This document shows, piece by piece, positions 41,593 to 55,944 of a stretch of 64,000 nucleotides of DNA; within the stretch, counting starts at the first letter, position 1, and every line of letters begins with the position of its first letter. This DNA is from Archangium lipolyticum (GTDB lineage: Bacteria; Myxococcota; Myxococcia; Myxococcales; Myxococcaceae), in contig NZ_JANKBZ010000027.1 of the NCBI RefSeq assembly GCF_024623785.1, forward strand, positions 62,001 through 126,000, read 5' to 3'. The notes under the pieces are model-generated. The model saw nothing but the letters and a program-made list of their open reading frames with translations, did no database searches and was not told where the DNA came from. The position numbers were made by a program, and so were the translations under genes.

Positions 41593-43506
41593 CTACGGCG
41601 TGACAGGGACGAGCGTGTCCACCTCGGCGGTGCCCGTGTAGCTGGTGGGCGTGTTGAGGTAGCCCTTCAGCACCACGCGCCAGGTCCCCGCCACCGGGCG
41701 CGGAATGGACACCGACTCCGCGGAGGAGGTGCCAGTGGCGCCGTTGGCCACCAGGTTGCCGCTCGGGTCATACACGTAGAGATCCAGATCGAGCGCCGGG
41801 TTGCCCCAGCTGGTGGTGACGCGCAGGGCGTTCGCGCCCGCGGGCACCGTGAGGGTGTGCTCGTGCTTCGCCTCGACGAGGCTGATGTCCACCACCGGCA
41901 GCTTCACCGTCAGGCCCACGTTGCCGCTCCAGCCGGGCAGGGCCGTGGTGACGGTGGTGGTGCGGGTGCCAGCGGACTCGGAGGCCGCGCGCACGGCGGC
42001 GTAGGCATCCGCGTAGCCCGCGCCCGCCTCCCACTCCTCGAGCTTGCGCGTGGCGCCCGTGGTGGCGTCCTGCGCGTAGATGGGCTTCGCGGTGGACGTC
42101 AGCGCCGCCAGCACGCCATCCATGTTGAGCGCCGGGTTGACCTCCAGCATCAGCGCGACGACGCCGCTCAGGTGCGGGGTGGCCATGGAGGTGCCATCCA
42201 GCGCCGCGTAGAAGGGCTCCGGGTGCAGGCCGTCCAGGCCCAGGTAGGGCTGCGCCACGGTGGCCGTGATGGCGCGCGCCGCGACGATGGCCACGCCGGG
42301 CAGGGTGATGTCCGGGTGGTGGTTGGCGTCACCCGGGATGCCGCGGCTGGAGAAGCTGGCGAGCTGGCCCGGCACGCCCTTGCTGACGAGCGGGTTGGTG
42401 GCCGCGCTGGTGTCCTTGGCCGCGCCCGCCGCCACCGAGATGACGCACGGCGAGGCGCTGTACGGGTTGAGCGTGTCCGCGTCCGGGCCGTCGTTGCCCG
42501 CCGCGAAGGCCACCACCACGCCCTCGTCGTAGGCGCGCTTGGAGGCGATGCTGATGGGATCGAACGGCGCGAAGTGGCTGCCGCTGGAGCCCCACGAGTT
42601 GGAGATGACGCGGACGTTGTACGTCTCTCGGATGTCCGGGCTCATCAGGTAGTCGAAGCCCTGCAGCGAGTAGAGGATGCTGATGGCCTCGCCCGCGCCC
42701 ACCGCGAGCAGCTTCGCGCCCGGGGCCACGCCCTTGTACTTACCGCCGGAGCGCGCCCCCGAGCCGCCGATGGTGCTCGCCACGTGCGTGCCGTGGCCGC
42801 TAGTGAGATCGCTGTTGGGCACGTCCACGTAGAGCGCGCCGCCCACGCCCACTTCCACGATGGGGGCCACCACCTTCACGTTCTTCACCAGGTTGGGGAA
42901 GTCCCCGTGCGTGCCGTCCACGCCCGAGTCGATGACGCCCACGCCCACGCCCGCGCCGGTGGCACCGTAGGCCGTGCGCGCCGTGTCCGCGCCGATGTAG
43001 TGGACGCTCTCGTCCAGGAAGTAGTGCAGCGGCCGGTCCTGGTAGATGGAGATGAGGCCGAGCGGCTGCAGCACCGTGCGCAGCGTGCCCAGCAGCACCG
43101 GGGTGACGGGGACCTTGATCGCCACCATGGGCAGCGCCTGGAAGGCTCCGAGCTTGTCACCCAGCGACAGGCCGAGCGTGCTCTTCAGCAGGTCCACCGC
43201 GGGCGCCACCGCCTCCTGCGTGTTGAAGGAGAGGATGAGCGTCTTCACCATTCCGTCGGCGGCGAGTCCCGGCTCCACCACTGCCTGGGTGAGAGCCGCC
43301 TGCGCCTGGGGGTTGGAGTAGAGGGCGGTGCAGGCGCTCGGGGGCGTGGCGGAGGGCTGCTCCGGCTCCACGACGGGCTTCTTCCCCTTGAGCGCGGCGC
43401 TGGTCGAGCGGATCCGGGCCGTCTCCGCGTCCGAGCTGGAGGCGCCGCAGCCGGAGAGGAGGGCGGTGGTGGTGAGGGTGAGGCCCAGCGTCTTGATGGC
43501 GTTCAT
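41593..43506 (-). CDS. Subtilisin-like serine protease lipoprotein (S8)
   Basis: 637 residues. The signal MNAIKTLGLTLTTTALLSGC is lipidated at Cys20. A propeptide-like region (about 30-165) precedes the catalytic domain. The triad is complete: Asp193 in GVIDSGVDGTH, His238 in SGHGTHVAS, Ser440 in LDGTSMATPH, with oxyanion Asn338 in AAGNDGP. The C-terminal 120 residues form a P-proprotein or pre-peptidase-like beta domain (WSGNVGLTVKLPVVDISLV, HTLTVPAGANALRVTTSWGNPALDLDLYVYDPSGNLVA). It is probably a secreted or surface protease that digests prey protein. A strong terminator follows the gene. Confidence 0.94.
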   Translation of the reverse strand: MNAIKTLGLTLTTTALLSGCGASSSDAETARIRSTSAALKGKKPVVEPEQPSATPPSACTALYSNPQAQAALTQAVVEPGLAADGMVKTLILSFNTQEAVAPAVDLLKSTLGLSLGDKLGAFQALPMVAIKVPVTPVLLGTLRTVLQPLGLISIYQDRPLHYFLDESVHYIGADTARTAYGATGAGVGVGVIDSGVDGTHGDFPNLVKNVKVVAPIVEVGVGGALYVDVPNSDLTSGHGTHVASTIGGSGARSGGKYKGVAPGAKLLAVGAGEAISILYSLQGFDYLMSPDIRETYNVRVISNSWGSSGSHFAPFDPISIASKRAYDEGVVVAFAAGNDGPDADTLNPYSASPCVISVAAGAAKDTSAATNPLVSKGVPGQLASFSSRGIPGDANHHPDITLPGVAIVAARAITATVAQPYLGLDGLHPEPFYAALDGTSMATPHLSGVVALMLEVNPALNMDGVLAALTSTAKPIYAQDATTGATRKLEEWEAGAGYADAYAAVRAASESAGTRTTTVTTALPGWSGNVGLTVKLPVVDISLVEAKHEHTLTVPAGANALRVTTSWGNPALDLDLYVYDPSGNLVANGATGTSSAESVSIPRPVAGTWRVVLKGYLNTPTSYTGTAEVDTLVPVTP

Positions 43507-43609: not shown

Positions 43610-44248
43610 TCAGTTCGACGGCGGCGTCAGGTAGTGGGCGGTCTGCACGGTGCCGTTGATGTCGACGGTGATGCTCTGGTCGGGCGTGCCCACCGGGATG
43701 CTTGGGATGCCGGCGTCGCGCTCGGGGATGACGATCGTCTTGCCGTCGAAGGTGATGACCTTGCCGGGCGCCGTCAGCGGCTGTCCCACGATGTTGAGCA
43801 CGATGCCGCCCACGTCCGCGGTGCCCCCCGGCAGGGTGATGGCCGAGGCGGGGATGTAGACGGGGACCGCCGGGGTGCTCACGCCATCGAGGTTGATGCA
43901 GCGGTTGGGCGTGAGGTTGAGCTCCGGGATGGTGACGGAGAGGGAGGGGATGTTCTGGGTGAGGCCCGGGACGAACACCGGCGAGCCATCCGTGCCCAGC
44001 ACCGGGCCGGGCAGGCTCACCGAGTAGCCGAGGATGGTCTGCCCCGTCTCATCCAGGTGGACCTGGATGGGCTGGATGGCGGCATCGCTGTCCGGGACGA
44101 CGACGGTGACGGCCGGCGTGGCCACCGTGTACGAGTCGACGTGGCCGATGACGTAGACGCAGGTGGGCTCGGCCATGGCCAGGCCCGGCACGGCCATGCC
44201 AGCGAACGCGGCGCCAACGAGGAAACGCTTCAGGTGACGGGTGCTCAT
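43610..44248 (-). CDS. Exported beta-rich protein, paralogue of the next gene
   Basis: 212 residues. The signal peptide MSTRHLKRFLVGAAFAGMAVPGLAMAEP probably cleaves after AMA. The mature protein begins CVYVIGHVDSYTVATPAVTVVVPDSD and is rich in Pro, Val, Thr and Gly, with short strands (GGIVLNIVGQPLTAPGKVITFDGKTIVIPERDAGIPSIPVG). Only two mature cysteines are present (PTCVYV, NRCINL), likely one disulphide. The gene at 44931-44386 shares the 'C.YV', 'StPAlvVPv.as', 'v.sIVL....P.t.pGhvltl.g' and 'tarYLpP' segments, so the two are tandem paralogues. I do not recognise the family. Confidence 0.75.
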   Translation of the reverse strand: MSTRHLKRFLVGAAFAGMAVPGLAMAEPTCVYVIGHVDSYTVATPAVTVVVPDSDAAIQPIQVHLDETGQTILGYSVSLPGPVLGTDGSPVFVPGLTQNIPSLSVTIPELNLTPNRCINLDGVSTPAVPVYIPASAITLPGGTADVGGIVLNIVGQPLTAPGKVITFDGKTIVIPERDAGIPSIPVGTPDQSITVDINGTVQTAHYLTPPSN

Positions 44249-44385
44249 GGGGTGCTCCTCAAGAGGCGCGAGGAGGGTTCTTCGGTCGGAGCTCGTGCCC
44301 CGCCTGCATCGCGCCTTCCTTCATTTCTTGGGAAAAGCCCCTGTCATTGGATCGCCTGGATTTAAAAATTATTTTCCGGGCGGTT

Positions 44386-44931
44386 TCAGGGCACCCTTTT
44401 CGCGGTGCTCTCCACGGCCAGGTCGCGGGTGGGTGGGAGGTAGCGGGCCGTCGTCGGGATGCCGCCCAACCGGAAGGTGATGGAGGGCTCGGGCATGTCC
44501 CACGAGGTGGTGGGAGTGGCGTCGCCGGGCGAGGGGAGGACGAGGAGGTCGCCGCCCTCGAGGGTGAGGACGTGCCCGGGCCGGGTTACCGGGTGCGCCC
44601 CGAAGTCGAGCACGATGGACCCCACCTCCATGAGTGTTTCCGGGCTCTCGAACAGCGAGGCGTGGACGGGGACGACGAGGGCGGGAGTGCTCTCGCCCTC
44701 ACGGGTGCACGTGCGCGGTGACAGGGCTCGGCCGTGGCCGGGCTCGTCGAGGTGGACGAGGGGAATGGCTGGCATCACCACGGGGGTGGGATCGGCCCGG
44801 CGCAGCACGTAGGCGCAAGGGGGCTCGGTCGAGCGCAGGGGCGCCACGACCAGCCCCGCCAATCCCAGACCCGCGAGGAGGGAACTCCAGCGATGGAGAC
44901 TCCCCCTCGGCTGCTCAGACGGATGATGCAT
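44386..44931 (-). CDS. Exported or membrane-anchored protein, paralogue of the previous gene
   Basis: 181 residues from ATG 44931. An N-terminal hydrophobic segment (RWSSLLAGLGLAGLVVAPL) acts as signal or anchor. The mature region CAYVLRRADPTPVVMPAIPLVHLDEPGHGRALSPRTCTREGESTPALVVPVHASLFESPETLMEVGSIVLDFGAHPVTRPGHVLTLEGGDLLVLPSPGDATP aligns with the gene at 44248-43610, with weaker identity and a shorter middle. It retains two cysteines at the same places. An AT-rich spacer (44340-44385) lies between the two genes and may hold the promoter of the other copy. Confidence 0.7.
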   Translation of the reverse strand: MHHPSEQPRGSLHRWSSLLAGLGLAGLVVAPLRSTEPPCAYVLRRADPTPVVMPAIPLVHLDEPGHGRALSPRTCTREGESTPALVVPVHASLFESPETLMEVGSIVLDFGAHPVTRPGHVLTLEGGDLLVLPSPGDATPTTSWDMPEPSITFRLGGIPTTARYLPPTRDLAVESTAKRVP

Positions 44932-45002: not shown

Positions 45003-46082
45003 TCAGTCGACCTTCAGCGACAGCTTCAACTGCTTCGTGTCGAACGCGTCCGATACGGTGAGGGTGAAGCCGTACGGTTCCACCGCCGCCTGCGTGGGCG
45101 TGCCGGAGAGGATGCCCGTACTCGACAGCATGAGACCCGGGGGAAGGGTGCTGCCAGCCGCCACCTTCCAGGTGACGGTGCCCGTGCTGCCGGAAGTCTG
45201 GAGGGTATAGGTGTAGGCCGAGCCCTGGCGCCCATCGGGGACGGCGCGGGTCAGCACGCACATGTACAGGGTCTGGCAGGAGCCGGTGGTGATTTGAAGC
45301 GTCCGGGTGACGACCTGCGGAGGCTCGTCGGAGTCCGTCACCCGCACCTCGAAGGCGCGAGTGACGCCCCCATTGTCCGGGTTCCCCTCGAGCCTCCCAT
45401 TGGGGAGCAGGATGATGTTGCCGGGCAGGGTGCTGCCCGCGACGAGCTCGAACTTGTAGGGCAGCTTGCCCCCGGTGGCCGAGAGCTGTTCCGTATAGGG
45501 TTTGCCGCTCGGCACATCCGCCAGGAAGCCCGGCCCGGCCATGCGCAGTAGGGGCCGGATGCTCAGGGAGAACTCCTGGCTGGCGCGCTGGGGCGTCGTG
45601 TCCTGGTCCACCACTTCAAGGGTGAAGCGGAAGTCTCCGGCCGCGGTGGGCTTGCCGGACAGCTCGCCCTTCGCGTTGAGCTCCAGGCCCGGCGGAAGCT
45701 GCCCGGGGGAGGAGAAGGTGTAGGGCGGAGTCCCGCCGCTCGCCTGGAACCGGTAGAGGAAGCTCGCCAACTCCAACCCCGGCCCGGGGCCATCCGGGAG
45801 GAGCAGGAGCGGCTCCGGCCCCGAGTCCGGGACGCCCGAGTCCGTGGTGCCAGCGTCCGCGCCCGGCTCCGGCGTGCCCCCATCCGAGTCCAACCCGGTG
45901 GGGCAGGGGCCTCGTTCACCGCAGTCCGGGAGACAGACGCCCTCGGAGGCCAGACACGTCCAGCCCGAGGCGCACGCGCCCTGGGCATCGCACACGGGGA
46001 AGCGGGAGAGGTCCGGTTGGAACACGCAGGCCGCGAGCCCGAGCAGCGCGGCCAGTCCCCACACCGTCGGCCAGTGCTTCAC
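45003..46082 (-). CDS. Lipoprotein with putative Ig (He_PIG-like) domains
   Basis: 359 residues from GTG 46082, which overlaps the stop of the upstream gene (GTGA). MKHWPTVWGLAALLGLAAC is a lipoprotein signal. A short Cys-rich module follows (FPVCDAQGACASGWTCLASEGVCLPDCGERGPC), then three putative Ig domains of the He_PIG type, each with 'G..PY.f....LPpGL.L...G.lsG.Pt..g.f.f.v.v.D': RFQASGGTPPYTFSSPGQLPPGLELNAKGELSGKPTAAGDFRFTLEVVD, LSATGGKLPYKFELVAGSTLPGNIIL and LQTSGSTGTVTWKVAAGSTLPPGLML. This gene is third in an operon with a caspase-like protease and a CsgG/TolB-like membrane protein. It is probably an adhesive or ligand-presenting surface protein. Confidence 0.85.
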   Translation of the reverse strand: MKHWPTVWGLAALLGLAACVFQPDLSRFPVCDAQGACASGWTCLASEGVCLPDCGERGPCPTGLDSDGGTPEPGADAGTTDSGVPDSGPEPLLLLPDGPGPGLELASFLYRFQASGGTPPYTFSSPGQLPPGLELNAKGELSGKPTAAGDFRFTLEVVDQDTTPQRASQEFSLSIRPLLRMAGPGFLADVPSGKPYTEQLSATGGKLPYKFELVAGSTLPGNIILLPNGRLEGNPDNGGVTRAFEVRVTDSDEPPQVVTRTLQITTGSCQTLYMCVLTRAVPDGRQGSAYTYTLQTSGSTGTVTWKVAAGSTLPPGLMLSSTGILSGTPTQAAVEPYGFTLTVSDAFDTKQLKLSLKVD

Positions 46083-46831
46083 GGTGTCTCCCAGACGAAG
46101 AAGACGGCCCCGCCCGCGCCCAGCAGCGCGCCGGCTCCCATCAGCAGGTTGGCCGTGCGGGTCTGTTGTTGCCCCTGCCGCAGGCGTCCGGCGAAGCACG
46201 AGCGGAAGGCCTCGCCCTCGCCGGTGCAGCCCGCGTTGCCCGTGGAGAGGCCCGCCTGCGAGCGGCGCGCGGCCAGTCCGAAGCCCACTCCGGCCGCGAG
46301 CGCGACACCTCCGGCCGCCAGCATCACGGTGGGCCACGCCTTCCTCACGCCCTTCTCCTTCCGGGGCGAGGGCCGCGCCGCCCAGAGCTCACCGAAGGCC
46401 TCGCGAGCCCGAGCCTCCTCCATTCCGGGAGGAAGTCCCTCTCCGGAGAGCTGGACGAAGGTATGGGACTCCTGGCCCTCGCGGTCCACCAGCGTGAGCG
46501 CCACGGAGCGCCCTCCGCCCACGCCGAGCGCCACGCCGCGCACCAGCCGCTCCGCGCCGAGCGCCTGTGTCTGCGAGCCCCGGCACGCCGCGTTCACGCA
46601 GCCGGGGAGCCGGCCTCCCTGGTCGCGCACCTTGGCCACTGTGCTCGCGCGAGACTCCAGACAGAGGCCGGAGGTGCTCTCCACCGCTCGGCGCACGGCG
46701 TCCTCCAACTGGCGCGCCTCGGCGCTCGGGAGCGCCACGGGTTGGAAGGGGACGAGCACCACCCGCTCGCCTCCACACGGGGCAGGTGCCCCCGCCAGCG
46801 ACAGCATCAGCGCGAAGGAGGGGAGACTCAT
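46079..46831 (-). CDS. CsgG/TolB-like membrane protein of the caspase module
   Basis: 250 residues from ATG 46831 (ATGA overlap with the upstream stop). A signal peptide (MSLPSFALMLSLAGAPAPC) is followed by a CsgG/TolB-N-like domain: ERVVLVPFQPVALPSAEARQLEDAVRRAVESTSGLCLESRASTVAKVRDQ, CVNAACRGSQTQALGAERLVRGVALGVGGGRSVALTLVDREGQE. Two C-terminal helices (AWPTVMLAAGGVALAAGVGFGLAA and TANLLMGAGALLGAGGAVFFVW) flank a loop with Cys residues (GCTGEGEAFRSC). The same plan occurs at 2-706. It probably sits in the envelope with its sensor domain in the periplasm. Function is unknown; coupling on both sides implies a complex. Confidence 0.8.
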   Translation of the reverse strand: MSLPSFALMLSLAGAPAPCGGERVVLVPFQPVALPSAEARQLEDAVRRAVESTSGLCLESRASTVAKVRDQGGRLPGCVNAACRGSQTQALGAERLVRGVALGVGGGRSVALTLVDREGQESHTFVQLSGEGLPPGMEEARAREAFGELWAARPSPRKEKGVRKAWPTVMLAAGGVALAAGVGFGLAARRSQAGLSTGNAGCTGEGEAFRSCFAGRLRQGQQQTRTANLLMGAGALLGAGGAVFFVWETP

Positions 46832-48090
46832 GGAGACAGGTCTGCCTGTTGCTCGGGCGCCACGGGCGTCTGCCCGAGGCTGGCCATGTAGCCGGTGTAG
46901 AAGCGGGGGCCGAAGGGCACGGAGAAGAGCTTCTCCTCGAAGGCGTCCTGCACGGCGCCACGCGAGGCGAAGGTGTTCTCGCGCCAGGTGAGGCTCGCGG
47001 CGTCCACCACCGCGCCCGCCCGGGTGAGCGGGAAGGGGGCCTCGCGTCCTGGCGCGTGCAGGAAGTAGCTGGACGCGAGCGGCAGCCCCAGCACGAGTGA
47101 GCGCTCACGCTCCTTGTTGAACTCCGCCACGCGCAGGCCGCGTGCATCCTCCACCCAGAGCCGGCCCTCCAGTCCCGCGGGGAGCAGGAGGAAGCCCAGG
47201 CGCGCCTTGTCCCCCAGGTTCACCAGGGGCGCGGAGCGGTCGAGCGCGGGCGGTTGGATGGACACGTCGAGCCGGCCGCGCACGTCCGCCACGCCCTGGT
47301 TGGCGGCGGCGACGAAGGCGCTCAGCTCCGAGTACTCGATGCGCCCGTCCGCGTTGACGTCCGCGGCACCGGCGAGCGCCGAGCGCACCTGGTGGCTGAA
47401 GACGCCCGAGCGGATGGCGCTCCACTCGTGGCTCTCCTGCTCGCGGGAGGTGGACAGCACGGCGCCCACATGCGGGTAGCGCGCCAGCTCGCGCGTGGCC
47501 AGCAGGCCCTGCACCGCCTGCACCTGGGCGGGAGCCACCGGCAGCGCGCCGCGCGAGTTGACGAAGAAGTACGAATCACACGCATCCACGATGAGGTGGA
47601 TGAAGCTGGCGGTGCTGGGTGCGATGACCTGCGAGAACAGCTCCGTGCGGGTGAAGGGCCCATCCAGGAGGCTCACCGTGCCCTCGCCAGCGGCCCCGCG
47701 CTTTCCATGGCCGGTGAAGACGAAATACAGCACCGGGATGGCGCCGCGTGCCCTGTCCTCGGACATGCGGGCATTCAGACGGCCGAGGGCCTCCTTGAGC
47801 GCGGCGCGGGTGGGCGGGCGCGTCCGGGCGGCGAGCCCCGGGTGGAGCGCCTGGGTCTCCGAGTCCATCACCGAGAGGAGCACCGCCTCCCGGGTGCGGG
47901 GGGCGAAGAGCTCGTAATAGCGCGCCCCGTCATCGTCGGCGTAGCGCAGGGGCGCCTGCTTGGGCTCGAGCCCGGTGTTGTTGGCGACGATGAGGGCGTA
48001 GCTCACCTGCTCGGGTGCGGCGCTCGCGGCGGCGCCGACGAGGAGCAGGGCCCACGACAGGGCCAGCGGAGCGCATCGGAGGAGTCGCAT
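46828..48090 (-). CDS. Caspase-like (C14) protease with EF-hand motif
   Basis: 420 residues from ATG 48090. The signal peptide MRLLRCAPLALSWALLLVGAAASAAP indicates export, unusual for caspase-type enzymes. The catalytic dyad is visible: His128 in YFVFTGHGKRG and Cys171 in LIVDACDSYFF. Residues 244-255, DVNADGRIEYSE, fit an EF-hand calcium loop with ligands at all canonical positions. It is followed by ELSAFVAAAN and a beta-rich C-terminus. This is the first gene of a three-gene operon (overlaps at 46828-46831 and 46079-46082) and is divergent from the ECF sigma gene. Metacaspase-like enzymes often need calcium, so calcium-controlled activation in the periplasm is inferred. Confidence 0.85.
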   Translation of the reverse strand: MRLLRCAPLALSWALLLVGAAASAAPEQVSYALIVANNTGLEPKQAPLRYADDDGARYYELFAPRTREAVLLSVMDSETQALHPGLAARTRPPTRAALKEALGRLNARMSEDRARGAIPVLYFVFTGHGKRGAAGEGTVSLLDGPFTRTELFSQVIAPSTASFIHLIVDACDSYFFVNSRGALPVAPAQVQAVQGLLATRELARYPHVGAVLSTSREQESHEWSAIRSGVFSHQVRSALAGAADVNADGRIEYSELSAFVAAANQGVADVRGRLDVSIQPPALDRSAPLVNLGDKARLGFLLLPAGLEGRLWVEDARGLRVAEFNKERERSLVLGLPLASSYFLHAPGREAPFPLTRAGAVVDAASLTWRENTFASRGAVQDAFEEKLFSVPFGPRFYTGYMASLGQTPVAPEQQADLSP

Positions 48091-48291
48091 GCACGGCAGA
48101 GTGTCTCCGGGAGGGTGAGAGGGCCGCAAGGTGCTACGGGTACGCGAGGGTGGCACAGAGGGAGGACGCACTGTGTCGATCATTGGACGGGAGGATTTTC
48201 GAGCCTGGACGATCCAACCCAACCGACAACGGACAATTTCAACCTGACAGGTGGATGACGCGGGCGGCGGGGCACGGTAAGTCGCCGAGGG
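48091..48291. promoter_or_regulatory. Divergent promoter region between caspase operon and ECF sigma gene
   Basis: This 201-base spacer must hold the promoters of both operons. The part at 48215-48260 is the least GC-rich (AACCGACAACGGACAATTTCAACC). No exact ECF -35 GGAAC motif was found, so I can name no promoter elements. Confidence 0.35.
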
Positions 48292-48921
48292 ATGGAGTGG
48301 GATGAGCGGACATTGCAGCGCTTCCGGGAGGGTGAACCAGAGACCCTGGGACGTGTGTACCGGGCACATGCCGAGGCGCTGGCACGGGGGCTGAGGGCCA
48401 TGGCGTGGCGGAGGGTCGGGCATGCCAGGGGCGCGCTGGAGCTGGAGAACACGGTGCTGGAGACGTTCGCCCGTGCCTTCGAGCCGAGGACGCGGGCGGC
48501 GTACGACGGGGTGAGACCTTACGGGCACTTCCTGGTGGGCATCGCGCGCAACGTGTTGCTGGAGCAGTCCAGGCAGCGCGAGGTGGCGGTGGGGTTGGAG
48601 CCCTTCGAGGGCAAGGGCGAGGTGCCGGAAGAGGGCGCGGGGCTGGCGCAGACGCTGGAGGACCGGGAGGTGGAGGCGCTGCTGGCGAGCTTCAAGGAGG
48701 GGCTGACGGAGGAGGAGCGGCGGCTGTTCGAGCTGCGCTTCGGCGAGGAGGAGCTGGCGCAGGAGGGAGCGGCGGAGCGGCTGGGGCTGACACGCATCCA
48801 GGTGAGGCGCCGGGAGCTGGGGTTGAAGACGCGGCTGCTCGAGTTCCTTCAAGCCCGCGGCTACCTGGAAGGGATGGAAGTGAAGGGGTGGAGCTTCTTC
48901 AAGCGGCGAGGCCAGTCATGA
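48292..48921 (+). CDS. ECF-type RNA polymerase sigma factor
   Basis: 209 residues. Region 2 reads TLQRFREGEPETLGRVYRAHAEALARGLRAMAWRR, then ELENTVLETFARAFEPRTRAAYDGVRPYGHFLVGIARNVLLEQSRQ, typical of ECF sigma-70 proteins. Region 4 is LTEEERRLFELRFGEEELAQEGAAERLGLTRIQVRRRELGLKTRLLEFL, a helix-turn-helix. It overlaps the downstream zinc-finger anti-sigma gene by four bases (ATGA), the classic arrangement. It is divergent from the caspase operon at 48090, which is its most likely target. The signal it responds to is unknown. Confidence 0.9.
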   Translation: MEWDERTLQRFREGEPETLGRVYRAHAEALARGLRAMAWRRVGHARGALELENTVLETFARAFEPRTRAAYDGVRPYGHFLVGIARNVLLEQSRQREVAVGLEPFEGKGEVPEEGAGLAQTLEDREVEALLASFKEGLTEEERRLFELRFGEEELAQEGAAERLGLTRIQVRRRELGLKTRLLEFLQARGYLEGMEVKGWSFFKRRGQS

Positions 48922-49679
48922 CGAGGTGCGCGGACAGACAGGCGAAGCAGGCGCTGGCGGCGCTCTTCCAGGGGGAGCTGGACGGAGAGGGCTACACGCG
49001 GCTGCGCGCGCACGCGGCGGGGTGCGAGGAGTGCCGCGAGGCCTACGACAAGCTGGGCCGGGTGGAGTCGGCGCTGGAGAAGCGCGCGCTGCCGGCGGGC
49101 CGGGAGGCGCTGCTGGAGAAGGAGCTGCTGGCGCGCGTGGCGGCGGCCGCGAAGCCGGCCCGGGCCCCCGTTCCCGAGCGCAAGCGCTTCTTCGAGGGAT
49201 TCTTCGTGCCCGCGGCGCTGGGGCTGGCGGTCTGCACCGTGCTGGTGCTGGTGGTGGTGCCGCGCCTGGAGACGCAGCCGGCCGGGCCCGAGGAGTGGCG
49301 GTCTCGCGGAGCGGAGACGGGCACGAAGGCCTGGGGCCTGCGGGCCTTCTGCGTGGGGGCGGACGGAGCGGTGAAAGGTGAGGCGCGGCCGGGCGGGACG
49401 CTGGTCTGCGCGGAGGGAGGCGCGGTGCAGTTCAGCTACACGGCGCCGGAGGGGGCACGGCTCTCGGTGGTGGGGACGCCGCCCGGCGGGGAGCCGCTCC
49501 AGTTCTTCCCGCGAGAGGGCGAGGCGGCGGCCATCCCGGCGGGGGTGGACCAGCTGTTGCCCTACAGCACGCCGGTGGAGGGCGGCTGGCTCGCCGGGCC
49601 GCTGGAGGTCCAGGCGAGCTTCACGGATGCCCAGGGCCGCCCGCTGTCGACGACGCGCCTCACCCTCTCCCCGAGGTAG
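48918..49679 (+). CDS. zf-HC2 membrane anti-sigma factor
   Basis: 253 residues from ATG 48918, overlapping the sigma gene. The N-terminus MTRCADRQAKQALAALFQGELDGEGYTRLRAHAAGCEECREAYDKL has the anti-sigma zinc finger H-x3-C-x2-C (His32, Cys36, Cys39). One membrane helix (FFVPAALGLAVCTVLVLVVV, about 93-112) separates it from a periplasmic region of about 140 residues (RAFCVGADGAVKGEARPGGTLVCAEGGAVQFSYTAPEGARLSVVGTPPGG), which looks like a small beta domain with two cysteines. It should hold the sigma factor at the membrane until the outer domain senses its signal. Confidence 0.88.
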   Translation: MTRCADRQAKQALAALFQGELDGEGYTRLRAHAAGCEECREAYDKLGRVESALEKRALPAGREALLEKELLARVAAAAKPARAPVPERKRFFEGFFVPAALGLAVCTVLVLVVVPRLETQPAGPEEWRSRGAETGTKAWGLRAFCVGADGAVKGEARPGGTLVCAEGGAVQFSYTAPEGARLSVVGTPPGGEPLQFFPREGEAAAIPAGVDQLLPYSTPVEGGWLAGPLEVQASFTDAQGRPLSTTRLTLSPR

Positions 49680-50664: not shown

Positions 50665-53600
50665 GTGAAGAGCCGCAACCGTCACCCCACCCGTACCCAG
50701 ACCGGGAAGAAGATCCGCAAGACCACCACCCTGGCGCGCCATTCGCACCCCCGTCCACGAAGGAGCGCGACGGCGGCGGCACTCGAGACGCTGCTGGAGT
50801 CGATGCGTGCCGTGACCTACGGAGACTTCTCCGTCCGGCTGCCACCGGAAGCGCAGCCGGCGGCGATGGAGGAGATCGCCCTCACCTTCAACGCCATGGT
50901 GGCGATGAACCAGCGGATGCAGGACGAGCTGGTGCGCGTGGAGCGCGTGGTGGGCCGCGAGGGACAGATGGCGGAGCGCGCCTCGCTGGGCCCGGTGAGC
51001 GGAGGCTGGGCCTCGAGCATCGGCTCCATCAACTCGCTCATCGCGGACCTGGTGCAGCCCACCACCGAGGTGGCGCGCGTGCTGGGCGCGGTGGCCCGAG
51101 GTGACCTCACCCAGAAGATGGCGTTGGACCTGCCCGGGCAGCCGGTGAAGGGCGAGTTCCTCCGCATCGGCACCACGGTGAACGCGATGGTGGACCAGCT
51201 GAGCTCCTTCGCCGCCGAAGTGACGCGCGTCGCGCGTGAAGTCGGTACGGAAGGGAAGCTGGGCGGCCAGGCGCGGGTGCCCGGGGTGGCCGGTACGTGG
51301 AAGGACCTCACGGACAGCGTGAACCAGCTGGCCAACAACCTGACCGCGCAGGTGCGAAACATCGCCGAGGTGACGACCTCGGTGGCGCGGGGTGACCTGT
51401 CGCGCAAGATCACGGTCGATGCGCGAGGCGAGGTGCTCGAGCTGAAGAACACCGTCAACACGATGGTGGATCAGCTCCGCTCGTTCGCTGGCGAAGTGAC
51501 GCGCGTCGCGAAGGAAGTGGGTACGGAAGGAAAGCTGGGAGGCCAGGCCGACGTGCCCGGCGTGTCCGGCGTGTGGAAGGACCTCACGGACAACGTGAAC
51601 CTGATGGCCTCCAACCTGACGACCCAGGTGCGAGGCATCGTGAAGGTGGTGACGGCGGTCGCCAACGGCGACCTGTCCCAGCGCCTGGTGGTGGATGCGA
51701 AGGGCGAGGTGGCCGCGCTGGCCGACACGCTCAACAGCATGACGAAGACCCTGGGCATCTTCGCCGACCAGGTGACGAGCGTCGCCAAGACGGTGGGCGT
51801 GGAAGGCAAGCTGGGCGCCCAGGCGGACGTGCCGGGTGTGGCGGGGACGTGGAAGGACCTCACGGACAACGTGAACCTGCTCGCCAACAACCTGACCGCG
51901 CAGGTGCGCAACATCGCGGAAGTCAGCACGGCCGTCGCCCGCGGTGACCTGTCCAAGAAGATCACGGTCGACGCCCGGGGCGAGGTGCTCGAGCTGAAGA
52001 ACACCATCAATACGATGGTGGAGCAGCTCCGCTCGTTCGCCGGTGAGGTGACCCGCGTCGCGAAGGAAGTGGGTACGGAAGGAAAGCTGGGCGGTCAGGC
52101 GGACGTGCCCGGCGTCTCCGGTACGTGGAAGGACCTCACGGACAACGTGAACTTCATGGCCTCCAACCTCACCAGCCAGGTGCGAAACATCGCGCTGGTG
52201 ACCACGGCGGTGGCCAATGGAGACCTGTCGCGGAAGATCACCGTCGACGTGAAGGGGGAAATCCTCGAGCTGAAGAACACCATCAATACGATGGTGGACC
52301 AGCTCCGGTCCTTCGCCGCGGAGGTGACGCGCGTCGCGCGCGAGGTGGGGACGGAAGGAAAGCTGGGCGGCCAGGCCGAGGTGCAGGGCGTGTCGGGCGT
52401 CTGGAAGGACCTGACCGACAGCGTGAACTCGATGGCGTCCAACCTCACCAACCAGGTGCGCAACATCGCCAAGGTGACGACGGCGGTGGCGAACGGTGAC
52501 CTGTCCAAGAAGATCACCGTCGATGCGAAGGGCGAGATTCTCGAGCTGAAGGACACCATCAACACGATGGTGGATCAGCTCAACGCGTTCGCCTCCGAGG
52601 TGACGCGCGTCGCCCGCGAGGTGGGTACCGAGGGCAAGCTGGGTGGCCAGGCGCGTGTGCCCGGTGTCGCCGGTACGTGGAAGGACCTCACGGACAACGT
52701 GAACCTGATGGCCCGCAACCTGACGACCCAGGTGCGCGGCATCGTCAAGGTGGTGACGGCGGTCGCCAATGGAGACCTCACCCAGAAGCTGGTCGTCGAC
52801 GCGAAGGGCGAGGTGGCCGCGCTGGCGGACACCATCAACAGCATGACCGACACCCTGGGCACCTTCGCCCAGCAGGTGTCCACGGTGGCCCGCGAGGTGG
52901 GTATCGAAGGGAAGCTGGGTGGCCAGGCCAAGGTGCCCGGTGCCCGCGGCGCCTGGAGGCAGCTGACCGACAACGTGAACCAGCTGGCCGGCAACCTGAC
53001 GTCTCAAGTGCGCGCCATCTCCGAGGTGGCCACCGCCGTGACGAAGGGTGACCTGACCCGGTCCATCTCGGTGGATGCGCAGGGCGAGGTGGCGGCCCTG
53101 TCCGACATCATCAACCAGATGATCGTCAACCTGAAGGAGACGACGCAGAAGAACACCGAGCAGGACTGGCTGAAGACGAACCTCGCGAAGTTCTCCGGCA
53201 TGATGCAGGGCCAGAAGAACCTGGAGGCCGTCTCCCGGCTCATCATGTCCGAGCTGACGCCCCTGGTCTCCGCGCACCACGGCGCCTTCTTCCTCATGGA
53301 CTCCGAGGATGGCGCGCCCGTGGCCAAGCTCACCTCCAGCTACGCCTACCGCGAGCGCAAGAACGTGGGCAACCGCTTCCGCCTCGGCGAGGGCCTGGTG
53401 GGCCAGTGCGCCCTGGAGAAGAAGACCATCCTCCTCACCCACGTGCCGGCGGACTACATCCGCATCACCTCCGGCCTGGGCGAGGCCAGCCCCCTCAACG
53501 TCATCGTCCTGCCCGTCCTCTTCGAGGGCGCGGTGAAGGCCATCATCGAGCTGGCCTCCTTCCACCCGTTCAGCACCATCCACCAGATCTTCCTGGACCA

Positions 53601-55944
53601 GCTCACCGAGAGCATTGGCGTGGTGTTGAACATGATCATGGCCAACATGCGCACCGAGGAGCTGCTGCGCCAGTCGCAGAGCCTCGCCAACGAGCTGCAG
53701 AGCCAGTCGCGCGAGCTCACCCAGCAGCAGGAGGAGCTCAAGCGCTCCAACTCGGCGCTGGAGGCCCAGGCCCTCGAGCTGGAGGAGAAGGCCAAACTGC
53801 TCGAGCAGCAGAACATCAAGGTGGAGGAGAAGAACCGCGAGGTGGAGCAGGCGCGCTCCTCCCTGGAGGAGAAGGCCGAGCAGCTCTCGCTCATCTCCAA
53901 GTACAAGAGCGAGTTCCTCGCCAACATGTCCCACGAGCTGCGCACGCCGCTCAACAGCATGCTGGTGCTGGCCAAGCTGCTCGCGGACAACTCCGACGGC
54001 TCACTCGGCCGCAAGCAGGTGGAGTACGCCGAGACCATCTACTCCTCGGGTGGGGACCTGCTGTCCCTCATCAACGAAATCCTCGACCTGTCCAAGGTGG
54101 AGGCGGGGAAGATGCAGGTGGAGCCGCGCGACTCCGCCGTGGCGGAGCTGGTGGAGTTCGCCCGCCGCACCTTCGGCCCCGTGGCCGAGCAGAAGCACCT
54201 GGGCTTCCTCACCGAGGTGGGCCCGGAAGTGCCGGCCACCGTCTTCACGGATCCGAAGCGGTTGCAGCAGATCCTCAAGAACCTGCTGTCCAACGCCTTC
54301 AAGTTCACCAGCACGGGCCAGGTGACGCTGCGCATCCGCATGGCGGACGCCGAGGAGCGCTTCGCCGCCCCCGAGCTGGTGGAGGCGGACACGGTGCTGG
54401 CCTTCTCCGTCATCGACACGGGCATTGGCATCCCCGAGGACAAGCAGAAGCTCATCTTCGAGGCCTTCCAGCAGGCGGATGGCACCACCAGCCGCAAGTA
54501 CGGCGGCACCGGCCTGGGGCTCTCCATCAGCCGCGAGCTGGCGCGGTTGCTGGGCGGAGAGATTCGCGTGAAGAGCGCTCGCGGCGCGGGCAGCACCTTC
54601 ACCCTCTACCTGCCGCGCAGCTACAGCGGCCCCGAGCGTGGGGGCGAGCCGGCCAGCGACGCGGACGTGGGCTACACCCCCATGCTGCGCGAGCTGTTGC
54701 CGCGTGACACGGTGCACGGCACCGCGGCCCCCCACCCGCTGGTGGACGACCGGGACAGCCTGGGCGCGGATGACAACGTGCTGCTGGTGGCGGTGGACGA
54801 CGTGGAGTTCGCCCACGGTCTGGTGACCGCCGCGCGCCAGCACGGCCTGAAGGCGCTGGTGGCCACCCGGGGTGACGTGGCGCTCTCGCTGGCCCAGCGG
54901 CTCAAGCCGTACGCCATCGTCCTGCAGCTCGGCCTGCCCGTCATCGACGGGTGGAGCGTGCTGGACCGCCTCAAGCGCGACCCGCGCACCCGCCGCATCC
55001 CCGTCCAGATGGTGAGCGTGGACCGGATGCGCGGCGCCTCGTGTGGTGGCGGCTTCGCCTACCTCGACCGGCCCTTCTCTCCCGAGGCCATCCAGGGCGC
55101 CTTCAGCCACCTGGAGCTCAAGCCCAACGGCGCGCCCCGGAAGCTGCTGCTGGTGGACCCCAAGCCCGAGCTGCGTGACTGCGTCCAGCAGCTCATCGAC
55201 ATGGGCGAGTCCCTGGAGATGCGCGAGCTGGAGTCGAGCGCCGCGGTGATGGCGCTCGACCGGGGTGAGGTGGACGCCCTGGCATTGGACCTGGCCGCGC
55301 CCGGTGGGCGGGGGATGAAGCTGCTGGTGGAGCTGGTGCGCCGGCCCGCCCGCCTGCCCCCCGTGCTCCTTTATAGTGGCTCGCAGCTGCTGCCGGATGA
55401 CGAGCGGCGGCTGCGGCGCTCGGCCGAGTCCGTGCTGCTCGAGGCGGCTGCCCGCTCGCCCGAGGCGGTGCTCGCCGAGGTGGGCCGCTTCCTGCGCCGG
55501 GTGGGGGATCAGTCCCGCGTGGCCAACGAGGAGGCCAAGGAGCTCACCCGCTCGCTCGCCGGCCGCAAGGTGCTGCTGGTGGACGACGATGCCCGCAACA
55601 TCTTCGCCCTCACCAGTGTCCTGGAGAGCCACGGCATGCATGTGACGTTCGCCCAGGACGGGCGAGCAGCCATGGACTTGATGGAGAAGAACCCGGAACT
55701 GGACGTGGTTCTGCTGGACGTGATGATGCCAGAGATGGACGGCTACCAGGCGATGCGCGCCATCCGTGCGGATTCCCGGTGGGCGTCGCTGCCGGTCATC
55801 GCCATCACCGCGCGGGCATTGAAGGACGACCGCGAGAAGTGCCTGGAAGCGGGCGCGTCCGATTACCTTTCGAAGCCGGTCGATACCGAGCGGCTGCTGG
55901 AGTTGATTCGCCGGTGGGTAGAGCCTTGCGCGGGAGCCAGATGA
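50665..55944 (+). CDS. Nik1-like cytoplasmic hybrid histidine kinase with HAMP array
   Basis: 1759 residues from GTG 50665 with GGAG upstream. No membrane helix is seen. After a basic N-terminus come about eight HAMP units; seven carry a near-identical linker ([25 protein letters not shown]) with exact 92-residue (276-base) spacing, about 51240-52990. A GAF domain (about residues 850-1000) and a coiled coil (about 1000-1090) lead to HisKA ([21 protein letters not shown]), then an ATPase with DTGIGIPE and [10 protein letters not shown]. Three receivers follow; the first has Gln in place of the phospho-acceptor Asp ([12 protein letters not shown]), the second is poor, the third is complete ([31 protein letters not shown]). 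This is the group III (Nik1/DhkC-like) type, known in fungal osmosensing. It overlaps the next kinase by four bases. Confidence 0.95.

Follow-up and report, generated by a model that had tools for sequence, protein, structure and literature searches.

A caspase-like protease encoded beside a sigma/anti-sigma pair in Archangium lipolyticum is predicted to cleave the anti-sigma factor

A 64,000-nucleotide stretch of Archangium lipolyticum DNA (the window; assembly GCF_024623785.1, contig NZ_JANKBZ010000027.1, positions 62,001 to 126,000) carries at 45003-49679 a module of five genes. They encode an extracytoplasmic function (ECF) sigma factor, its putative membrane anti-sigma factor and, on the opposite strand, an exported caspase-like protease, a membrane protein and a lipoprotein. 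Comparison of sequences and structure models indicates that the caspase is probably a periplasmic, self-processing site-1 protease, which would cut the anti-sigma factor and free the sigma factor. This is the opposite of the arrow drawn in a first-pass annotation of the same DNA, where the released sigma factor raises the caspase set. The enzyme and its predicted substrate carry matching sites, and their genes are linked across the Myxococcota.

Conserved linkage of the sigma, anti-sigma and caspase genes

The five open reading frames of the first-pass annotation all score as coding, and a codon-usage gene call returned the identical five genes, except for a later start codon for sigma. Within the operons, start and stop codons overlap as ATGA (48918-48921 and 46828-46831) and GTGA (46079-46082), and 201 bp separate the divergent sigma and caspase operons. 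The layout and overlaps described earlier are thus confirmed by the sequence and by an independent gene call. The features of the core genes are as follows.

48292..48921, + strand: ECF-type sigma factor, 209 amino acids (aa); Sigma70_r4 above the Pfam cut-off, caspase adjacent in orthologous loci
48918..49679, + strand: membrane anti-sigma factor with zf-HC2, one transmembrane (TM) helix (residues 97-113), a disordered stalk and a periplasmic beta-sandwich (about 140-251); Pfam, alignment, AlphaFold model
49290..49310, + strand: site in the stalk of the anti-sigma where the caspase is predicted to cut, E-E-W-R-S-R130↓G131 (the arrow marks the predicted bond); conservation, predicted local distance difference test (pLDDT) <50
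46828..48090, - strand: exported caspase/metacaspase-like cysteine protease, 420 aa, with signal peptide; model, Foldseek, invariant residues
47929..47931, - strand: D54, second predicted S1-pocket Asp; invariant in 52/52, aligned to the Asp of metacaspase-4 L-R-G-C-V-N-D
47707..47709, - strand: codon of catalytic His128; invariant in 52/52
47578..47586, - strand: D169-A170-C171, S1-pocket Asp and catalytic Cys; invariant in 52/52, aligned to metacaspase-4 D-S-C
47548..47553, - strand: predicted self-processing site V-N-S-R180↓G181 at Cys+9; R/K conservation in triad caspases
47326..47361, - strand: EF-hand-like Ca2+ loop D244-x-N-x-D-G-x-I-x-x-x-E255; invariant residues, profile match

When 27 orthologous loci (caspase 53-97% identical) were searched by tblastn with the five proteins, 26 held all five genes within about 5 kb. 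In the 27th, from A. lansinium (L091), an insertion places sigma and anti-sigma about 6 kb away. The conserved adjacency of the five families, which the first-pass annotation had put forward as a check, was therefore seen in 27/27 orthologous loci. Between sigma and caspase, 1-6 kb of unrelated genes are found in four Archangium genomes (L052-L055, L091), and both halves are kept.

The linkage is not confined to orthologues. An ECF-type gene is adjacent to each of the 13 caspase genes called in the source genome, the usual order being sigma, anti-sigma, caspase. Since the 12.6-Mb genome contains 56 Sigma70_r2 matches, such adjacency in 13/13 cases is not attributable to chance. The core triad of ECF sigma, zinc-finger anti-sigma and exported caspase was also found in other families and classes of Myxococcota, and sigma is adjacent to caspase in most of >150 loci elsewhere. 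That unrelated genes of a large genome came together by chance is refuted by this synteny and has next to no credibility.

The exported caspase

The caspase, a relative of proteases that act in the cell death of animals and plants, has a signal peptide and is therefore predicted to be exported. Its AlphaFold model (pLDDT 84.8, predicted template modelling score 0.85) has the caspase/metacaspase fold: the best PDB matches in Foldseek were metacaspase 9 (E 2.8e-6) and MALT1 (4.3e-6), and residues 27-295 reached a Z of 19.5 in the VIA structural comparison. Residues H128, C171, D54, D169, D244, D248, G249 and E255 are invariant in 52/52 homologues. The earlier identification of a caspase-like protease with a His128/Cys171 dyad is confirmed, and none of the 52 homologues shows the loss of catalytic residues that had been named as a point against it. 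The window caspase itself (P0003) has no direct match to Pfam C14; paralogues 22-41% identical to it, including one at 40%, score above the C14 cut-off.

The profile of the caspase family matches metacaspase-4 (E 5.6e-5), with D54 and D169 falling on its N-D and D-S-C aspartates. The S1 pocket of TbMCA2 includes Cys92, Asp95, Ser156 and Asp211 (PMC4357240), to which D54 (as Asp95) and D169 (as Asp211) would correspond; from this equivalence, cleavage after Arg or Lys is predicted. Orthocaspases in general cleave after Arg or Lys (PMC6426788). In profile searches, the EF-hand-like loop matched the EF-hands of Ca-binding proteins with known structures, and the caspase is probably Ca2+-dependent.

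The anti-sigma factor and its stalk

The zf-HC2 anti-sigma factor proposed in the first-pass annotation is supported by a Pfam match above the cut-off (E 1e-5). H32, C36 and C39 (H-x3-C-x2-C) are invariant in the alignment, and the cognate sigma gene lies upstream through the ATGA overlap. Both the motif and the gene order fit class I zinc-binding anti-sigma factors, which predicts inhibition of the sigma factor. In the AlphaFold model, residues 79-136 of the stalk have pLDDT <50 and a folded beta domain begins at about residue 140. This periplasmic domain has an immunoglobulin-like (Ig-like) fold in structure comparison (Z about 8); the fold was rejected as a clue, being too common to carry meaning.

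Within the disordered stalk, R130 belongs to the motif E-W-x-x-R-[GS], and its position holds a basic residue in 19/19 anti-sigma factors of alignment A4. Nearly every triad anti-sigma has a basic-small dipeptide in the disordered stalk, 8-31 residues past the TM helix. Among 26 non-redundant caspase-linked anti-sigmas (<40% identity), 25 have [RK][GS] at most 30 aa after the TM helix; in 2,000 residue shuffles of the same proteins, the mean was 14 and the maximum 23. The site reads [W/F]-x-[A/S/P]-R↓[G/S] in the clade of the window (R clade) and R-x-K↓G in a second one (K clade). The logo of 51 R-clade triads has W/F at P4 in 46, A/P/S at P2 in 44, R at P1 in 50 and G/S at P1' in 46. Among 12 K-clade periplasmic regions, the K and G are the sole invariant residues.

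Corresponding sites in the caspase and the anti-sigma factor

A site of this kind is also present in most of the caspases, at the ninth residue past the catalytic Cys. It reads V-x-S-R↓G in the R clade, with Arg in 51/51, and R-x-K↓G in most K-clade caspases (38 triads). Behind it, the model shows a disordered loop (pLDDT about 55). In about 90 triads with both sites, the P1 residue of the caspase is the same as that of its partner anti-sigma, with one mismatch (L075). Arg at P3 in the K clade is present at both sites in 23 cases, at one only in 3 and 3, and at neither in 9 (p 2e-4, not corrected for relatedness). Among C14 proteins outside triads, no [RK]G-type site was found at Cys+9, where other residues stand. 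Two divergent triads, one of the K clade and one of the R clade, lie back to back in L124 (1785-9000).

The R-clade anti-sigma logo agrees with the specificity of the MALT1 paracaspase, which cuts L-X-P/S-R↓G (PMC4659944) and whose S2 pocket favours Ser, Ala and Pro (PMC6207715). W223 was considered as the residue that decides between R and K specificity; this candidate was weakened by L042, which has the Trp yet K at both sites.

Loci and genomes without the caspase

The periplasmic domain of the anti-sigma occurs nine times in the source genome, the window copy included, and 9/9 copies are in triads. It was found in 26/29 genomes with C14 and in 0/7 genomes without a detected caspase (p 1e-5), five of these seven having been classed by the C14 profile and two by a search with the window caspase only. 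Among scored loci found through this domain, 41/41 caspase-linked ones keep the dipeptide. It is lost where no caspase lies next door in one Anaeromyxobacter-like clade (the genus label is a guess), in L293 and perhaps in L297, at a contig end. Of about 11 zinc-finger anti-sigmas of the source genome without a caspase, one carries the dipeptide close to the helix.

Several points weigh against cleavage of the anti-sigma by the caspase. The KG of K-type proteins often stands only 3-5 residues ahead of the first beta strand, where a structural role would also fit. Four loci (L282, L327, L342 and L360) keep the site although no adjacent caspase gene was found, and the contrast between caspase-linked and caspase-less loci reaches only p about 0.01 when counted by independent group. 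In L075, the caspase's own site has R and the anti-sigma K. An A-x-C subfamily contributes nine triad caspases without [RK]G at Cys+9, and their anti-sigmas keep KG. Finally, the tree places the change between R and K at essentially a single deep point, and the P1 agreement mostly reflects conservation, not repeated co-switching; for this reason, the raw Fisher p of 5e-22 for the R/K pairing was set aside as evidence of repeated co-evolution.

The position of the KG and the four caspase-less loci would favour a structural or docking element, at which the caspase binds, or a caspase with other substrates that signals without cutting the anti-sigma. This we consider quite unlikely. The site stands at a variable distance from the beta domain (about 2 to 20 residues), the residue lies in a low-confidence stalk ahead of the domain, and the domain persists without the dipeptide in the Anaeromyxobacter-like clade and L293. 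Moreover, P1 matches the Cys+9 loop of the caspase itself.

In L282 (2764-6537), the sigma gene and a triad-type anti-sigma gene (KG kept) are followed by two further proteins in the place of the caspase. These resemble matrixin-type metalloproteases, and the locus is possibly a protease swap.

The sigma factor and the direction of control

The ECF label given to the sigma factor holds for region 4, where Sigma70_r4 scored 27.7 bits against a Pfam cut-off of 24.1 (E 1.9e-6). The whole-family model TIGR02937 scored 35.5 bits, below its cut-off of 42.9, and Sigma70_r2 was unmatched in the Pfam search, region 2 being too diverged for Pfam.

Alignment of 22 intergenic regions revealed one conserved element.

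48211..48236, + strand: promoter-like element GATCCA-N15-GACAA, 5' of the sigma gene; aligned conservation in 22 intergenic regions

Partial versions of it remain with the sigma gene in split and codirectional loci, and it is a candidate promoter element of that gene. A single bidirectional sigma promoter serving both operons was also considered. In the caspase direction, the intergenic alignments contain no matching element; the caspase side has a different, TGGCA-like one. The first-pass circuit, in which the released sigma factor raises the caspase set, is to that extent unsupported, and its direction is probably incomplete. Its co-regulation part may still stand, because in L075, from a metagenome-assembled genome, all five genes run codirectionally behind sigma.

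Neighbours of ECF factors in operons are often their targets. The caspase, membrane protein and lipoprotein could on this ground be sigma outputs for the envelope or for cell death, the anti-sigma being switched otherwise. The common 201-bp intergenic region and the gene order of L075 favour such a role, as does the cell-death role suggested for Myxococcus xanthus metacaspases (PMC3501461). It would leave unexplained the matched [RK]G sites of caspase and anti-sigma and the confinement of the anti-sigma periplasmic domain to triads, and the absence of a sigma-side element in the caspase direction also speaks against it. We therefore regard a pure output role as unlikely, and retain the caspase as the probable protease of the anti-sigma factor.

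The membrane protein, the lipoprotein and neighbouring genes

Two further genes complete the caspase operon.

46079..46831, - strand: exported protein in which cysteines are conserved and two C-terminal helices form a hairpin; conserved in 26 loci
45003..46082, - strand: lipoprotein with three Ig-like (He_PIG) repeats; He_PIG match, lipobox

The protein at 46079..46831 had no Pfam match and no PDB profile match. Its "CsgG/TolB-like" label in the first-pass annotation is thus unsupported by these searches, a missing match not excluding the label. The Ig-like lipoprotein was correctly recognized: it has three He_PIG repeats (Pfam, E 5e-28) and an N-terminal lipobox L-A-A-C, and is conserved in the module. 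Some relatives of the caspase carry a two-helix tail of their own, and others an extension with an outer-membrane-barrel-like end (C-terminal F/W/L/I). It is because of these built-in tails and extensions that the membrane protein and lipoprotein are suggested to tether or sense; the two probably serve as anchor or sensor, and the two-helix protein is a possible anchor for the caspase. Most exported caspases of the K clade (L041-L050, L200-L259) are longer by 100-250 residues that include no TM helix, and end patterns such as GVGYRF, GAGLRI and GWRF resemble the outer-membrane beta-barrel signal, as in a caspase fused to a barrel.

Adjoining the module, 41593-43506 and 43610-44862 encode a subtilisin-like protease and two related proteins, all secreted. 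They are also neighbours of the module in other Archangium-type loci, and in Corallococcus-type loci the subtilase stands at the opposite end; these genes are possible members of the regulon. On the other side, 50665-55944 encodes a hybrid histidine kinase of great length, in which the kinase domain is preceded by many near-identical repeats (KDLTDxVNxMAxNLTxQVRNI).

Proposed mechanism

An exported protease, an exposed stalk and a site-2 protease in the genome (M50 proteases were matched in profile searches) are all present, as site-1/site-2 proteolysis requires. In the resting state, the membrane anti-sigma would hold the ECF sigma factor. An envelope signal, possibly Ca2+ acting through the EF-hand-like loop, would activate the exported caspase, which may cleave itself at R180↓G181 and then cut the anti-sigma at R130↓G131 in its stalk, outside the membrane but close to it. 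A site-2 (M50) protease would finish the remaining stump, and the sigma factor would be free to reach its presumed targets.

We also lean, with less assurance, towards a wider proposal. Exported caspases across the phylum may be dedicated site-1 proteases of anti-sigma factors, the self-processing loop and the stalk following one MALT1-like code that differs between clades (phi-x-[S/A/P]-R↓G or R-x-K↓G). Tethering by membrane hairpins or outer-membrane barrels would then read the state of the outer membrane into transcription.

The role of bacterial caspase homologues is a long-standing question, usually answered by speculation about cell death. If the proposal is true, a large class of exported caspases, with 13 members in the source genome, has a defined function, which is to switch genes on through cleavage of a known protein at a bond that can be predicted. 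Each triad would then supply an enzyme together with its natural substrate for the study of paracaspase-like specificity, and regulated proteolysis would gain a new initial step. The prediction reaches the level of single residues.

Comparison with known systems

The first-pass annotation considered the arrangement not to be a described system. In fact the linkage was published in 2012: 4/5 M. xanthus metacaspases are in operons with sigma-70 factors, and such operons also occur in Anaeromyxobacter, Haliangium, Sorangium, Ralstonia and Fibrobacter (Asplund-Samuelsson 2012, PMC3501461). These are almost certainly the same family of loci. The accessible text of that study reports the linkage only, giving no anti-sigma, export, cleavage site or control direction, and no mechanism beyond a possible cell-death role, so that the claim of novelty stands for the mechanism. 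A literature search, which covered few subscription papers or preprints, returned no caspase reported as an anti-sigma site-1 protease, a weak absence. The linkage is thus already known, and the comparative evidence for action of the caspase on the anti-sigma is new here.

DegS-RseP acting on RseA, and RsiV (PMC4183432), likewise involve a membrane anti-sigma with an exposed stalk, a periplasmic cut and then an M50 site-2 protease. Here, in contrast, the site-1 cut is proposed to be made by a cysteine protease of the caspase family, whose gene lies with that of its target and which has a matching self-processing site. In Craspase, where Csx29 (TPR-CHAT) cleaves Csx30 near a sigma factor (PMC10028731), a caspase-like protease is tied to ECF-type sigma control as in the present module. 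Craspase is cytoplasmic, RNA-guided and of the CHAT family, whereas the window caspase is exported and paired with a zinc-finger membrane anti-sigma; it has a signal peptide and no CHAT match in Pfam, no search for Cas7-11 having been made. Protease-linked control was also proposed for ECF54 with CHAT or subtilase neighbours (PMC8999054), without the anti-sigma that is present here, and EACC2-caspase loci with ECF factors (PMC8195603) differ from this module in their parts.

The closest relatives of the enzyme itself are the MALT1 paracaspase and type I/II metacaspases, which it resembles in fold, His-Cys dyad, acidic S1 pocket and the phi-x-[S/P/A]-R↓G preference, predicted in the case of the window caspase. 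It differs from them in being bacterial and exported, in its EF-hand-like loop and in the different C-terminal domains of its family.

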